DNA from: JAWLHK01 sp041690355 [NCBI: bacterium]
GTDB taxonomy: Bacteria; J088; JAWLBW01
Direction of reading: 5' to 3'
DNA: 64,000 nt
Assembly: GCA_041690355.1 (NCBI GenBank)
Contig: JAWLHK010000020.1
Span: 19,051 to 83,050 of the forward strand
Made by a program: the position numbers and the translations under genes. The notes under the pieces are model-generated. The model made no database searches, was not told where the DNA came from, and saw only the letters and a list, made by a program, of their open reading frames with translations. This document shows positions 27,884 through 36,749 of this stretch, one piece after another (positions within the stretch are counted from its first letter, which is position 1; each line of letters starts with the position of its first letter).

Positions 27884-29554
27884 ATGAGCGACCAGAAAAT
27901 CATCTTCTCCATGTCGAAGGTCTCGAAGGCCTATAAGGACAAGAAGGTCATCGAAGACATCAGCCTTTCGTTCTTCTACGGCGCCAAGATCGGCGTACTT
28001 GGGTTGAACGGGGCGGGTAAATCGACGCTGCTGCGGATCATTGCCGGCGAAGACAAGCAGTACATGGGCGAGGTGAACGCCAGCAAAGGGGTGAGCTTCG
28101 GGATGCTGGCCCAGGAGCCGCAGCTCGACGAGTCCCGCACGGTCAAGCAAATCGTGCGCGAAGGCGCCGCCGAAGTCGCCGAGCTGCTCGAGAAGTACGA
28201 GGCCGTCAGCGCGAAGTTCGCCGATCCCGATGCGGACTACGACAAACTCATGGAAGAGCAGGGCAAGCTGCAGGACCGCATCGAGCAGCTGAATGGCTGG
28301 GATCTCGACAGCCGCCTCGAGCAGGCCATGGACGCGCTGCGTTGCCCCGACGGCGACACGCCGATCAAGGTCTGCTCGGGCGGCGAGCGCCGCCGGGTCG
28401 CCCTGTGCCGCCTGCTGCTGCAGAAGCCCGACGTCCTGCTCCTCGACGAGCCGACGAACCATCTCGACGCCGAGTCGGTGGCCTGGCTCGAGAAGTTTCT
28501 CCAGGACTACGAGGGGACGGTCATCGCGGTCACGCACGATCGCTACTTTCTCGACAACGTCGCCGGCTGGATCCTCGAGCTCGACCGCGGCCGCGGTATT
28601 CCCTTCAAGGGCAACTATTCCGGCTGGCTCGAACAGAAGTCTGCGCGCCTGGCCGTCGAGGAGAAGCAGGAGTCGAAGCGGCAGAAGACGCTCGAACGCG
28701 AACTCGAGTGGATTCGCACGAATCCCAAGGGGCGCACGGTCAAGAGCAAGGCGCGCATCACTGCTTATGAGGAACTGCTGTCGGAACAGGCCGACAAGCG
28801 GCGCGAGGATCTGGAAATCTACATCCCGCCCGGCCCGCGTCTCGGCGACAACGTGATTGCCTTCGACGACGTCGCGAAGTCGTTCGGCGATCGGCTGCTG
28901 TATGAGAATCTGAGTTTCCGCCTCCCGCCCGGCGGCATCGTCGGTATCATCGGTCCGAACGGCGCCGGTAAGTCGACCCTTTTCCGCATGATCATCGGGC
29001 AGGAGAAGCCCGACGCCGGCACGATCTCCATCGGCGAAACGGTCAAGCTCGGCTACGTCGATCAGAATCGGCCGCTCGACCCCAAGAAGCGCATCTGGGA
29101 AGAAATCGGTGACGGCCAGGATACGGTCCGGCTCGGCAAGCAGGAAGTGAACACCCGTTCCTACGTCGCGCGGTTCAACTTCACCGGCAGCGACCAGCAG
29201 AAGCTGACCACCGAGGTCTCGGGGGGCGAACGCAACCGCGTGCATCTCGCCAAGATGCTCAAGGAGGGGGCGAACGTGCTGCTGCTCGACGAACCGAGCA
29301 ACGACCTCGACGTGAACACCCTGCGCGCGCTCGAAGAAGCGCTGTTGAACTTCGCGGGCTGCGCCGTGGTCATCTCGCACGATCGCTGGTTTCTCGACCG
29401 TATCGCCACGCACATTCTCGCCTTCGAGGGTGACAGCGAGGTGGTCTGGTTCGAGGGCAACTATCAGGACTACGAAGCGGACCGCCGCCGCCGCCTCGGC
29501 GACAGGGCCGACCGGCCGCACCGCATCCAGTACAAGAAGCTCACGCGGAATTGA
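27884..29554 (+). CDS. ettA: Energy-dependent translational throttle protein (ABC-F ATPase)
   Basis: EttA binds the ribosomal E site and gates translation according to ATP/ADP. Two ABC domains in 556 residues (E. coli 555): Walker A GLNGAGKST and GPNGAGKST, signatures CSGGERRRVALCRLLL and VSGGERNRVHLAKML, Walker B LLLDEPTNHLD and LLLDEPSNDLD, H loops VTHDRYFLD and ISHDRWFLD. The arm and linker (WIRTNPKGRTVKSKARITAYEELL) carry the EttA-type insertion. GGGAG lies upstream of the ATG. The TGA stop lies inside the terminal repeat of the adjacent four-helix-bundle element, so the native last codons may have been altered. Confidence 0.95.
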   Translation: MSDQKIIFSMSKVSKAYKDKKVIEDISLSFFYGAKIGVLGLNGAGKSTLLRIIAGEDKQYMGEVNASKGVSFGMLAQEPQLDESRTVKQIVREGAAEVAELLEKYEAVSAKFADPDADYDKLMEEQGKLQDRIEQLNGWDLDSRLEQAMDALRCPDGDTPIKVCSGGERRRVALCRLLLQKPDVLLLDEPTNHLDAESVAWLEKFLQDYEGTVIAVTHDRYFLDNVAGWILELDRGRGIPFKGNYSGWLEQKSARLAVEEKQESKRQKTLERELEWIRTNPKGRTVKSKARITAYEELLSEQADKRREDLEIYIPPGPRLGDNVIAFDDVAKSFGDRLLYENLSFRLPPGGIVGIIGPNGAGKSTLFRMIIGQEKPDAGTISIGETVKLGYVDQNRPLDPKKRIWEEIGDGQDTVRLGKQEVNTRSYVARFNFTGSDQQKLTTEVSGGERNRVHLAKMLKEGANVLLLDEPSNDLDVNTLRALEEALLNFAGCAVVISHDRWFLDRIATHILAFEGDSEVVWFEGNYQDYEADRRRRLGDRADRPHRIQYKKLTRN

Positions 29555-29585
29555 CGATTTACGATTGACGATTGACGATTGACCG
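29550..29585 (+). repeat. Left terminal inverted repeat (heptamers)
   Basis: Five 7-base units: TTGACGA, TTTACGA, TTGACGA, TTGACGA, TTGACCG. The first contains the TGA stop of ettA. Confidence 0.85.
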
Positions 29586-29656
29586 GCAAGAGCAGGAGTC
29601 GATTCTGCTCCAGTCGGTGCCCTCAGCCGACATCGGCTCGTCTTCGCCCGTGAGTG

Positions 29657-30025
29657 TCAGGGAGAGTTTTCGTTGCGGCGGGTCGTTCGGATGGAGGAGA
29701 CCAGAATCGCGAAGAGCTGGTCGGCCTCTTCCTGGATGCCGCTCAGCCGTTCGTGAAGCTTTTCCAGATGCGGCCGGTCGCGCAGCAGTTCGAGCCAGTA
29801 CCGGCATTCGTCGGCTTCCTCTTCGGCAATCTTGAGCTTCGCTATGAAATCGGCCCTGGACCGTCCAAGGCAGGCGGCCCGGTAGTTTGCGCCGACCGAT
29901 GTAGAGCATCGGATAAGCTGGTGCCCGATGACGCGCGTTGCTGCGCCCTCAGGAAGCGATTCCACAAAATCGATGACGGAATTGGCGAAGCGGCGCATCC
30001 GGCGCTTCATGGCGTCAGGGTTCAT
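29657..30025 (-). CDS. Four-helix-bundle protein, S23 (23S rRNA intervening sequence)/avd-like family
   Basis: A 122-residue protein. RRFANSVIDFVESLP, THQ-type IGHQLIRCSTSVGANYRAACLGRSRADFIAKLKIAEEEADECRYWLELL is the diagnostic signature of the TIGR02436 four-helix-bundle family, which includes proteins encoded in 23S rRNA intervening sequences and is related to bAvd, the RNA-binding accessory protein of diversity-generating retroelements. It lacks catalytic residues; its pentameric bundle in homologues binds nucleic acid. A TATACT box (complement of 30038-30043) lies 12 bases upstream of the ATG. It is the sole gene of the TIR-bounded element. Confidence 0.93.
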   Translation of the reverse strand: MNPDAMKRRMRRFANSVIDFVESLPEGAATRVIGHQLIRCSTSVGANYRAACLGRSRADFIAKLKIAEEEADECRYWLELLRDRPHLEKLHERLSGIQEEADQLFAILVSSIRTTRRNENSP

Positions 30026-30090
30026 CCCTGCTACGCTAGTATAGTCGCGGCTTACCCGTCAACGAAAAAGCACTTATTTCCGATTTGAAA

Positions 30091-30124
30091 GTAATCGTCA
30101 TTCGTCAATCGTAAATTGTCAATC
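30091..30124 (-). repeat. Right terminal inverted repeat (heptamers)
   Basis: Read on the minus strand it is GATTGACAATTTACGATT followed by GACGAATGACGATTAC. It is the inverted copy of the left end with two mismatches over 31 bases. Confidence 0.85.
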
Positions 30125-30126
30125 AG

Positions 30127-30162
30127 CAAAAAACCCAACTGCACAAGTTGCACAGTTGGGTT
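30127..30162 (-). terminator. Intrinsic terminator after tRNA-Leu(GAG)
   Basis: On the minus strand AACCCAACTG pairs with CAGTTGGGTT around an 11-base loop that can add three inner pairs, followed by six T. It ends the gap operon/tRNA transcript. The element terminus starts four bases beyond it. Confidence 0.88.
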
Positions 30163-30168
30163 CAAGTA

Positions 30169-30253
30169 TGGTGCCGAAGGCGGGATTCGAACCCGCACGG
30201 GTTTCCCCGCCACCCCCTCAAGATGGTGTGTCTGCCAGTTCCACCACTTCGGC
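30169..30253 (-). tRNA. tRNA-Leu (anticodon GAG)
   Basis: An 85-base class II tRNA on the minus strand. Acceptor GCCGAAG pairs with CTTCGGC, followed by A and an encoded CCA. Anticodon stem CCATC/GGTGG encloses TTGAGGG with anticodon GAG, reading CUC/CUU. It lies 26 bases behind secG, an association also known in other bacteria, and probably is cut from the secG transcript. Confidence 0.96.
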
Positions 30254-30279
30254 AAAGGGTCTGAGTCTTTTCGCGGACG

Positions 30280-30636
30280 TTACTGCGTTTCGTCGGTCAG
30301 CGGCTGGGCCACCGCTTCGTCGGCCGGCGCCGTCACCGGCGAACCCGGCTCTTCGGGCGCGACCTCGGACGGAACCGGTGCGCCCCCCATGATGCTCGTG
30401 GCGCCGCGGCCCGACATGTAGGCCAGCGAGAGCGACGTGAGGCCGAAGATGATGGCCGCGGCCGTCGTCACCTTGCCCATGAAGCCGCCGGCGCCGGAGC
30501 TGCCGAACACCGTCGAGCTCGAACCGCCGCCGCCGAAGGCAAGCCCCATGCCGCCGCCCTTGCCGGGCTGCAGCAGCACCATCACTACGAGAACGATGGC
30601 GTCGATGACGTGAATGACTTTGAGAAACGTTTCCAT
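30280..30636 (-). CDS. secG: Preprotein translocase subunit SecG
   Basis: SecG is the accessory subunit of SecYEG. The 118-residue protein has TM1 (FLKVIHVIDAIVLVVMVLLQPG), the conserved loop GKGGGMGLAFGGGGSSSTVFGSSGAGGFMGKVTTAAAIIFGLTSLSLAYM containing TM2, and a Pro/Glu-rich tail. Length is near E. coli SecG (110). It follows tpiA by 78 bases in the gap-pgk-tpiA-secG order. Confidence 0.95.
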   Translation of the reverse strand: METFLKVIHVIDAIVLVVMVLLQPGKGGGMGLAFGGGGSSSTVFGSSGAGGFMGKVTTAAAIIFGLTSLSLAYMSGRGATSIMGGAPVPSEVAPEEPGSPVTAPADEAVAQPLTDETQ

Positions 30637-36317: not shown

Positions 36318-36749
36318 ATGAACCGTAAAGAGTTGGTCGCCGAGGTTGCCAAGCGCACCGAAGTGGCGATGAGCCAGATCAACCACACGCTTGATCACGT
36401 TCTCGATGCCATCTCCGAAGCGCTGACGGGCGGCCGCGACGTGGCGCTCAAGGGTTTCGGCACGTTCTCGGTCTCGAAGCGCGCTGCTCGCGTTGGCCGC
36501 AATCCCCAGACCGGCGCCACCATCAAGATCGGCGCCAGCAAGAGCCCGAAGTTCAAGCCCTCGTCGCAGCTGAAGCAGGCCGTCAAGGCCGGCAAGGTTG
36601 CCAAGAAGGCCGCGCCGGCCAAGAAGGCTTCGAAGCCTGCCGCCAAGAAGGCTGCACCGAAGAAGGCCGCTGCCAAGCCGGCCGCCAAGAAGGTTGCCAA
36701 GAAGGCCCCCGCCAAGAAGGCGCCGGCCAAGAAGGCTGCCAAGAAGTAA
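36318..36749 (+). CDS. HU-family DNA-binding protein with a Lys/Ala repeat tail
   Basis: Residues 1-90 are a complete HU: MNRKELVAEVAKRTEVAMSQINHTLDHVLDAISEALTGGRDVALKGFGTFSVSKRAARVGRNPQTGATIKIGASKSPKFKPSSQLKQAV, including the DNA-binding arm with RNPQTG. A 53-residue tail of AKK/PAKK repeats follows, like histone H1 and like HupS or mycobacterial HupB tails; it should bind linker DNA non-specifically. AGGAGG precedes the ATG. The same type of tail is fused to the N terminus of PpdK in this window. Confidence 0.96.
   Translation: MNRKELVAEVAKRTEVAMSQINHTLDHVLDAISEALTGGRDVALKGFGTFSVSKRAARVGRNPQTGATIKIGASKSPKFKPSSQLKQAVKAGKVAKKAAPAKKASKPAAKKAAPKKAAAKPAAKKVAKKAPAKKAPAKKAAKK

Follow-up and report, generated by a model that had tools for sequence, protein, structure and literature searches.

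The DNA analysed here is a 64-kb window (64,000 nucleotides of contig JAWLHK010000020.1; all coordinates are positions in this window), in which a minimal foldback element of about 570 nt lies between ettA and a tRNA-Leu gene. It consists of a heptamer array, one gene for a four-helix-bundle (FHB) protein and an inverted heptamer array (Table 1). The arms proper (29550-29580 and 30093-30123) are 31 nt long, lie 512 nt apart and match as inverted repeats at 29 of 31 positions (94% complementary), whereas 40 dinucleotide shuffles of 29300-30400 gave best 31-nt inverted matches of at most 24 (mean 21.4). The pattern TTKACGATTKACGATT, with two mismatches allowed, gave six matches against 0.06 expected, all of them within the two arms, and Tandem Repeats Finder (score at least 40) reported period 7 in the window solely at 29550-29583 and 30093-30124. 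The inverted heptamer ends of the original prediction are thus confirmed by repeat search, shuffles and tandem-repeat analysis. The odd unit TTTACGA occupies the second position in both arms, so the unit order is mirrored.

The FHB gene is, as predicted, the only gene between the ends. The left end does supply the ettA stop codon, which lies inside the first repeat, and the right arm does end 4 bases short of an A-run, which on the minus strand is the T-run of the tRNA-Leu terminator; read in its own orientation, the element follows the tRNA gene. The arms are paired in the predicted fold of the minus-strand RNA of 29545-30128 (minimum free energy -228.2 kcal/mol, z -4.40, 0 of 100 shuffles equally stable). 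A TATACT box had also been proposed for the gene (about 30038-30043, minus strand) and was not borne out: a sigma-70 scan of 29500-30300 returned no promoters, which leaves other promoter types possible.

Table 1. Positions of the foldback element and its boundaries in the 64-kb window.
Feature	Position	Strand	Remarks
Left arm	29550..29583	none	4.9 copies of the 7-nt unit ATTGACG, one copy ATTTACG
ettA stop codon TGA	29552..29554	+	within first heptamer of left arm
FHB gene	29657..30025	-	122 aa, PF05635 / TIGR02436
Right arm	30093..30124	none	4.6 copies of the reverse-complement unit
Whole element	29550..30123	-	arms pair in predicted minus-strand RNA fold
tRNA-Leu(GAG) terminator	30128..30162	-	right-hand boundary of the element
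tRNA-Leu	30169-30253		minus-strand terminator stem 30132-30162

The encoded protein matches PF05635 (E 1.5e-16) and TIGR02436, 'four helix bundle protein' (E 6.5e-24). PF05635 was its only Pfam match at E<=0.001, with no recognised transposase domain and no Y1 HUH transposase. The nearest solved relative by sequence is 2rld (phmmer E 1.9e-16; one entry, five chains), and in Xanthomonas campestris the S23p protein forms a toroidal homopentamer built of four-helix bundles (PMC4990558; papers are cited here from the parts available to us). Because five polar residues are near-invariant across 122 FHBs (Q36 99%, N47 99%, E73 98%, S43 97% and R39 93%, in the numbering of the window protein), the alignment suggests that they mark a functional site. 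Among the genomes sampled, PF05635 was present in 45 of the 61 from Bacteroidota and in 28 of the 59 from Cyanobacteria.

Relatives of the window gene were taken from one scan of genome contigs as the best 80 of 535, at 46-57% identity, and these 80 span more than a dozen phyla. In their 200-nt flanks a period-7 score of at least 0.81 was reached by 57% of upstream sequences (n = 74) and 60% of downstream sequences (n = 78), compared to 2.3% of 1621 controls; the other periods from 4 to 12 reached it in at most 1.4%. Arrays stood on both sides in 56 of 72 loci with full flanks at a laxer threshold of 0.71, which has no computed control. Further loci from Bacteroidota and Cyanobacteria were picked irrespective of their arms; 2 of 60 lacked a tblastn hit and 2 a flank. 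The 56 that remained had an inverted-arm score of at least 16 in 33 cases (0 of 169 controls) and of at least 14 in 42 (1.8% of 169 controls). Inverted flanking repeats are therefore the rule, and the finding that would have refuted the original prediction, FHB genes elsewhere that are never flanked by such repeats, did not appear. Periods 6-8 were tried on the 118 loci whose arms have three or more units: 101 had period 7 and 17 had period 8, and the commonest arm length was five units (48 left, 45 right); arms of period 6 were noticed by eye in a few loci. The elements span 433-803 nt. The window locus fits the family definition of an FHB gene, inverted tandem arms of period 6-8 and a gene end, and we regard this anatomy and its family-wide pattern as near certain.

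Records with a relative included 2 from phages and 26 from plasmids. On the Planktothrix agardhii plasmids L180, L181 and L183 the FHB gene lies between the DISARM gene drmD and a methyltransferase-type gene (annotated as MmeI in L181 and as PglX in L183). Their arrays appear doubled, each side having an inner inverted array as well, and the number of units varies between plasmids that are 97-99% identical. No element-free counterpart of this plasmid site was found at high identity. Three copies in the Akkermansia genome G005 (L127, L128 and L130) have no heptamer arrays, yet strong inverted flanking repeats (scores 33, 20 and 46), perhaps another type of arm. FHB-rich spots were seen in three related Bacteroidota (G102, G114 and G130): groups of several FHB genes, spaced by about 1.5-1.7 kb, whose locations seem to correspond between the genomes.

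The 20 genomes reached through FHB loci held 1 to 23 FHB matches each, and within one genome each copy tends to have arms that match each other. The copies in G006, an acidobacterium, differ in their unit (ACGAGTG, AAGTGGC, AGGCAGT, AAGTATG, GATTGAC etc.), and in most of them the left and right arms are mutually reverse-complementary: the mean left-right score was 22.3 within a copy and 9.8 between copies, and in 13 of 19 copies the left arm scored highest with its own right arm. When seven genomes were taken together, this held for 36 of 54 copies; random positions scored 9.7 (301 pairs). Mirrored unit order, as in the window, was seen across the 118 loci, where the score of 18.6 fell to 16.2 after the units of one arm were shuffled (Wilcoxon 6e-11). 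One genome (G001:C203:168-485 and 693-1010, L111) has two equal-scoring FHB genes 525 nt apart with identical arm repeats, which looks like a tandem duplication through the arms.

The arms also follow the protein between genomes. FHB pairs from different genomes with less than 30% identity shared arms (score at least 16) in 2% of a sample of such pairs, and this fraction rose to 15% at 45-50% identity, 28% at 55-60%, 56% at 60-70% and 88% above 70% (16 pairs), 14 same-site pairs having been removed. In a Mantel test of arm against FHB similarity, 0 of 300 permutations were at or above the observed correlation. A site between mlaF and mlaD in one cyanobacterial genus shows how this looks at a single place. 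Its 26 loci comprised 20 with an FHB element, 3 geneless ones and 3 cut by contig ends, and the elements were of two types with distinct FHB clades: type A with AGTCATT arms (13) and type B with GTTGGCA arms (7). Arm type and FHB clade agreed in 20 of 20. Arm type changed once on the FHB tree and five times on the tree of the adjacent upstream gene (shuffled mean 6.0; 496 of 2000 shuffles gave as few or fewer); therefore gene and both arms swap together while the flank stays.

A second informative site lies between prfB and trmD in Akkermansia, where a 591-base probe matched 58 of 59 genomes (one weakly) and 27 of 30 fetched loci could be read across. As we read them, 9 contained an FHB element, the two genes then lying 463-677 nt apart; 10 had a geneless foldback (80-118 nt, one degenerate), 7 were empty (28-60 nt) and one was a 164-nt locus without arms. 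The FHBs at this site form two separate clades in a FastTree phylogeny whose supports were not inspected. Orthologues from one clade can have widely differing arms, the left one of each nonetheless matching the right one, and likewise at a second site; the arms evolve faster than the FHB gene, and in concert. One geneless form has an internal piece in common with an FHB element. A family of miniature inverted-repeat transposable elements (MITEs) with a conserved core was considered for this form and rejected, as the piece was single-copy in 3 of the 4 genomes searched. At another site (L175) arms were present in genome G014 alone and the other loci, some of them paralogues, were at most 79% identical, so no junction could be read.

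Arrays of matching unit but without a gene are abundant in some FHB-bearing genomes. Three tandem RGTCATT units occurred in 8 of 59 cyanobacterial genomes, namely in 7 of 24 with an FHB above the Pfam cut-off and in 1 of 35 others (Fisher p 0.0058, kinship ignored), and the three top-ranking genomes, with 736, 735 and 326 overlapping matches, are those in which the sampled FHB shares 64-100% identity with type A. Matches to AGTCATT in G178 (28) and G160 (26) came with no close type-A FHB among the copies examined. For the type-B unit, GTTGGCA in three tandem copies had a median of 42 matches in 7 genomes with type B and 6 in 13 with type A (p 0.0034; 9 of the 29 genomes of the genus were not classed), compared to 7 and 4 for the reversed-pattern control (p 0.12). 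No type A or B FHB was found in the fetched stretch around any of 40 arrays, the first listed from G175 and G166. Of these arrays, 24 begin within -15 to +13 nt of the stop of a co-directional open reading frame (ORF), and 17 have an inverted partner (score at least 12) within 170 nt, whereas direct partners were found for 8 and controls gave 0 in two stretches. We infer that such geneless foldbacks are acted on in trans by the FHB protein. The original prediction had proposed mobilisation in trans, and the idea gains from these arrays, which, if mobile, need it.

Like the window element, the others tend to lie at gene ends. In 65 loci with two arms, the upstream gene was called in 64 and the downstream gene in 61, and the FHB gene was co-directional with the upstream gene in 50 of the 64. 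Crude ORF calling placed the start of the array within -9 to +4 nt of the stop-codon end in 27 of these 50, with a mode of -2. A different ORF test, applied to 80 loci preselected for a stop within -40 to +30, put the stop codon between -2 and +1 relative to the beginning of the array in 34 of them. Elements also lie directly behind tRNA-SeC in three Acidobacteria contigs (L019, L022 and L075) and between two tRNA genes in L007 and L015. The neighbours of the window element, identified by domain or sequence reading, are ettA, secG, tpiA, pgk, gap and PPDK; ettA was named from its ABC_tran and ABC_tran_Xtn domains, and this gene and prfB, trmD, mlaF and mlaD were read from sequence or domains, not from annotation. 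Elements in glycolytic gene runs were seen in other phyla, after a tpiA homologue (L009) and between pgk and tpiA homologues (L089), and the window element is likewise close to gap-pgk-tpiA-secG. Elsewhere in the window, overlapping tandem periods at 36600-36746 read as Lys/Ala-rich coding repeats resembling a histone-like tail.

What could these observations mean? We favour, as the more probable account, a selfish foldback element, kin to the intervening sequences (IVSs) of 23S rRNA, whose FHB protein recognises its own arms and helps the element to spread to gene ends. It is likely that the FHB protein recognises the arm repeats, and indirect evidence makes it likely that the element is mobile. 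In the mechanism we propose, the FHB protein, which by homology would be a ring-shaped homopentamer, would recognise the repeats of its own arms, in DNA or in a stem of RNA or single-stranded DNA; the modal five units per arm could, as a guess, correspond to one repeat per pentamer subunit. Through this recognition, gene ends would become open to the element and to geneless foldbacks of equal unit. In transcripts, the stem would allow RNase III to excise the element RNA, and insertion would therefore be harmless.

A bolder form of this proposal is possible, and we put it forward tentatively, with more doubt than conviction. It would be a new transposition system, in which each subunit of an FHB pentamer reads one of the five heptamers of an arm. 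Aided by no more than general host enzymes, the pentamer would carry its own element, and geneless foldbacks by the hundred, to the ends of genes, by a clade-specific and fast-evolving code; the orphan heptamers of cyanobacteria, Xanthomonas, Beggiatoaceae and Geobacter and the 23S IVSs would be its products. The tie between FHB genes and heptamer arms by itself reduces two old puzzles, the role of S23p and the abundance of heptanucleotide repeats, to the single question whether FHB proteins recognise their heptamers and cause them to spread. If they do, this would be a class of mobile element whose sole protein has about 120 residues and no known transposase domain, and a natural code between protein and repeat with very many co-varying pairs.

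Several results weigh against the selfish foldback element as we picture it. An inverted-arm score below 16 was found in 23 of the 56 sampled loci. Own arms were best in only 2 of 6 copies in G015 and in 3 of 5 each in G001 and G018, and mirrored order was significant at a single locus (p<=0.05) in 17 of 118 loci only, with p>=0.5 in 45. Orthologous FHBs can bear differing arms, so that either arm recognition is loose or arm sequences change quickly. AGTCATT matches occur in G166 (215), G184 (188) and G158 (39) with no matching FHB seen, although one of four FHB copies was examined in G184, and G158 also has 14 matches to the reversed control pattern; the type-A genome G210 has 60 matches to the type-B unit GTTGGCA. 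Stop-containing units may account for part of the docking at stop codons. Deletion is a likelier origin than transposition for the Akkermansia geneless form with the internal piece, because that piece is single in each genome in which it was found. Within single genomes we noticed no family of near-identical copies, the G001 tandem pair apart, and movement is therefore slow or mostly horizontal. No fresh insertion came to light: no near-identical genome pair differing only by the element was seen, and thus no target duplication and no exact junction.

Among other explanations, the elements could be RNA processing modules at gene ends that are not now mobile. Their arms would act as bidirectional hairpins (terminators or RNase III substrates) that insulate the neighbouring genes, the FHB protein would autoregulate through the stem of its own mRNA, and recombination between flanking genes would spread them. 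The arms do pair in predicted RNA and stay matched while their sequence changes, location and co-direction with the upstream gene fit, and IVS RNA is cut by RNase III (PMC4990558). We nevertheless consider such a module unlikely, since, at the site with a flank tree independent of type, FHB and arm type are replaced jointly, two separate FHB clades occupy one Akkermansia site, related FHBs go with alike arms at unrelated sites between phyla, and hundreds of geneless array matches would be left unexplained. Slippage is a different kind of explanation, in which the arrays are simple repeats and the FHB protein is a host binder with a part in replication, repair or chromosome organisation, its proximity reflecting autoregulation. 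Orphan heptamer arrays are indeed known in several bacteria (PMC4692102, PMC4679880, PMC2700814), and 23 of the 40 solo arrays examined had no clear inverted partner. Slippage does not, however, yield matched inverted arms around a gene, 433-803 nt overall and differing from copy to copy of one genome, nor explain empty and filled states with two FHB clades at one site, which makes it very improbable. That an ordinary intergenic gene lies by chance within an inverted repeat is suggested by the small size alone; contradicted by the shuffle and control tests and by the family-wide pattern, it is scarcely credible.

Retroelement-like spread would have element RNA bound by the FHB protein, as Avd serves the reverse transcriptase (RT) of diversity-generating retroelements (DGRs), copied by an RT in trans and integrated. 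PF05635 resembles Avd, which is essential for DGR retrohoming (PMC10053308), the elements are mostly co-oriented with upstream genes, and the arms match as an RNA stem. RVT_1 was found in 7 of 20 FHB-bearing genomes, although incomplete genomes and divergent or lost RTs are possible, and Y1 in 16 of 20; neither was found in G018, G009 or G020. RVT_1 was likewise not found in G006 (23 FHB matches), G015 (13), G018 (11) or G016 (10). No RT was present among the identified neighbour genes in the window, the rest of the 64 kb not having been scanned for RT or for template and variable repeats (TR/VR). We judge this route improbable. A resident RVT_1 or Y1 enzyme as a required mobiliser is also not supported, 13 of 20 genomes showing no RVT_1 and 4 of 20 no Y1. 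Thus, of the original view of the window element as a free-living form of the IVS element class, the RNA intermediate served by a resident RT is not supported (none found in G006 or G018), while inverted repeats as the rule, the polymorphic Akkermansia site and the IVS kinship speak for the remainder.

That kinship brings us to known systems. The 23S rRNA IVS of Coxiella burnetii contains an S23p ORF, has complementary ends that form a 28-bp stem, and yields RNA cut by RNase III; its 5' arm has tandem GACAGAT heptamers, two or three plus a degenerate one, in strain-variable number (PMC4990558). Because of these heptamers, the relation to IVSs that the original prediction had claimed is strengthened. 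IVSs are suspected remnants of transposition or mobile elements, and the available text of the same paper does not extend the heptamer observation to intergenic FHB genes (PMC4990558). The window element resembles an IVS as a small, selfish-looking element with a single S23p/FHB ORF, complementary stem-forming ends and tandem heptamers. It differs in lying between a protein gene and a tRNA gene and in that both arms are heptamer arrays, and its family differs in having many intergenic copies per genome with differing units, and geneless derivatives. A blastn search with E. coli 23S rRNA gave no match among the FHB loci compared, and the window element is not inserted in 23S. The 23S rRNA IVSs look like an rRNA-inserted branch of the FHB foldback family.

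The Avd protein of DGRs is PF05635-like and of a common protein fold family (PMC10053308), but no RT is among the identified neighbours of the window element. REP (repetitive extragenic palindromic) sequences and REPINs with their RAYT proteins are similar in their scattered extragenic short inverted units, a dedicated protein gene flanked by them and matched specificity (PMC3116915, PMC8266576). FHB elements differ from these in their tandem heptamers and in having an FHB protein instead of a Y1 transposase (TnpA-REP). In contrast to insertion sequences and MITEs, the window element has no recognised transposase. The foldback (FB) elements of Drosophila have inverted arms of short tandem repeats too, but are eukaryotic and have an unrelated protein.

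The last comparison is with heptamer repeats that had no known partner. Arrays of GGGAATC in Xanthomonas and GGGGA(C/T)T in Nostoc, most commonly four units long and without a settled function, lie near or over stop codons; two Xanthomonas genomes have 70-75 inverted heptamer pairs, and no general association with insertion sequences or transposable elements was reported (PMC4692102, as far as available). TAACTGA arrays in Beggiatoaceae also lack a settled function, and an earlier survey found that, for most genomes, no class of long simple repeats was commoner than heptanucleotides (PMC4679880); those of Geobacter were called putative regulatory elements (PMC2700814). Such arrays resemble those of FHB elements in being tandem and largely intergenic, and in their stop-codon proximity and inverted pairs (PMC4692102), but the available parts of these papers make no link to FHB genes (PMC4692102, PMC4679880, PMC2700814). 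In a literature search of partial coverage we found no published link between FHB genes and heptamer arrays in general. FHB foldback elements are thus apparently an undescribed and very widespread group, and may explain the puzzling heptamer repeats of bacteria.

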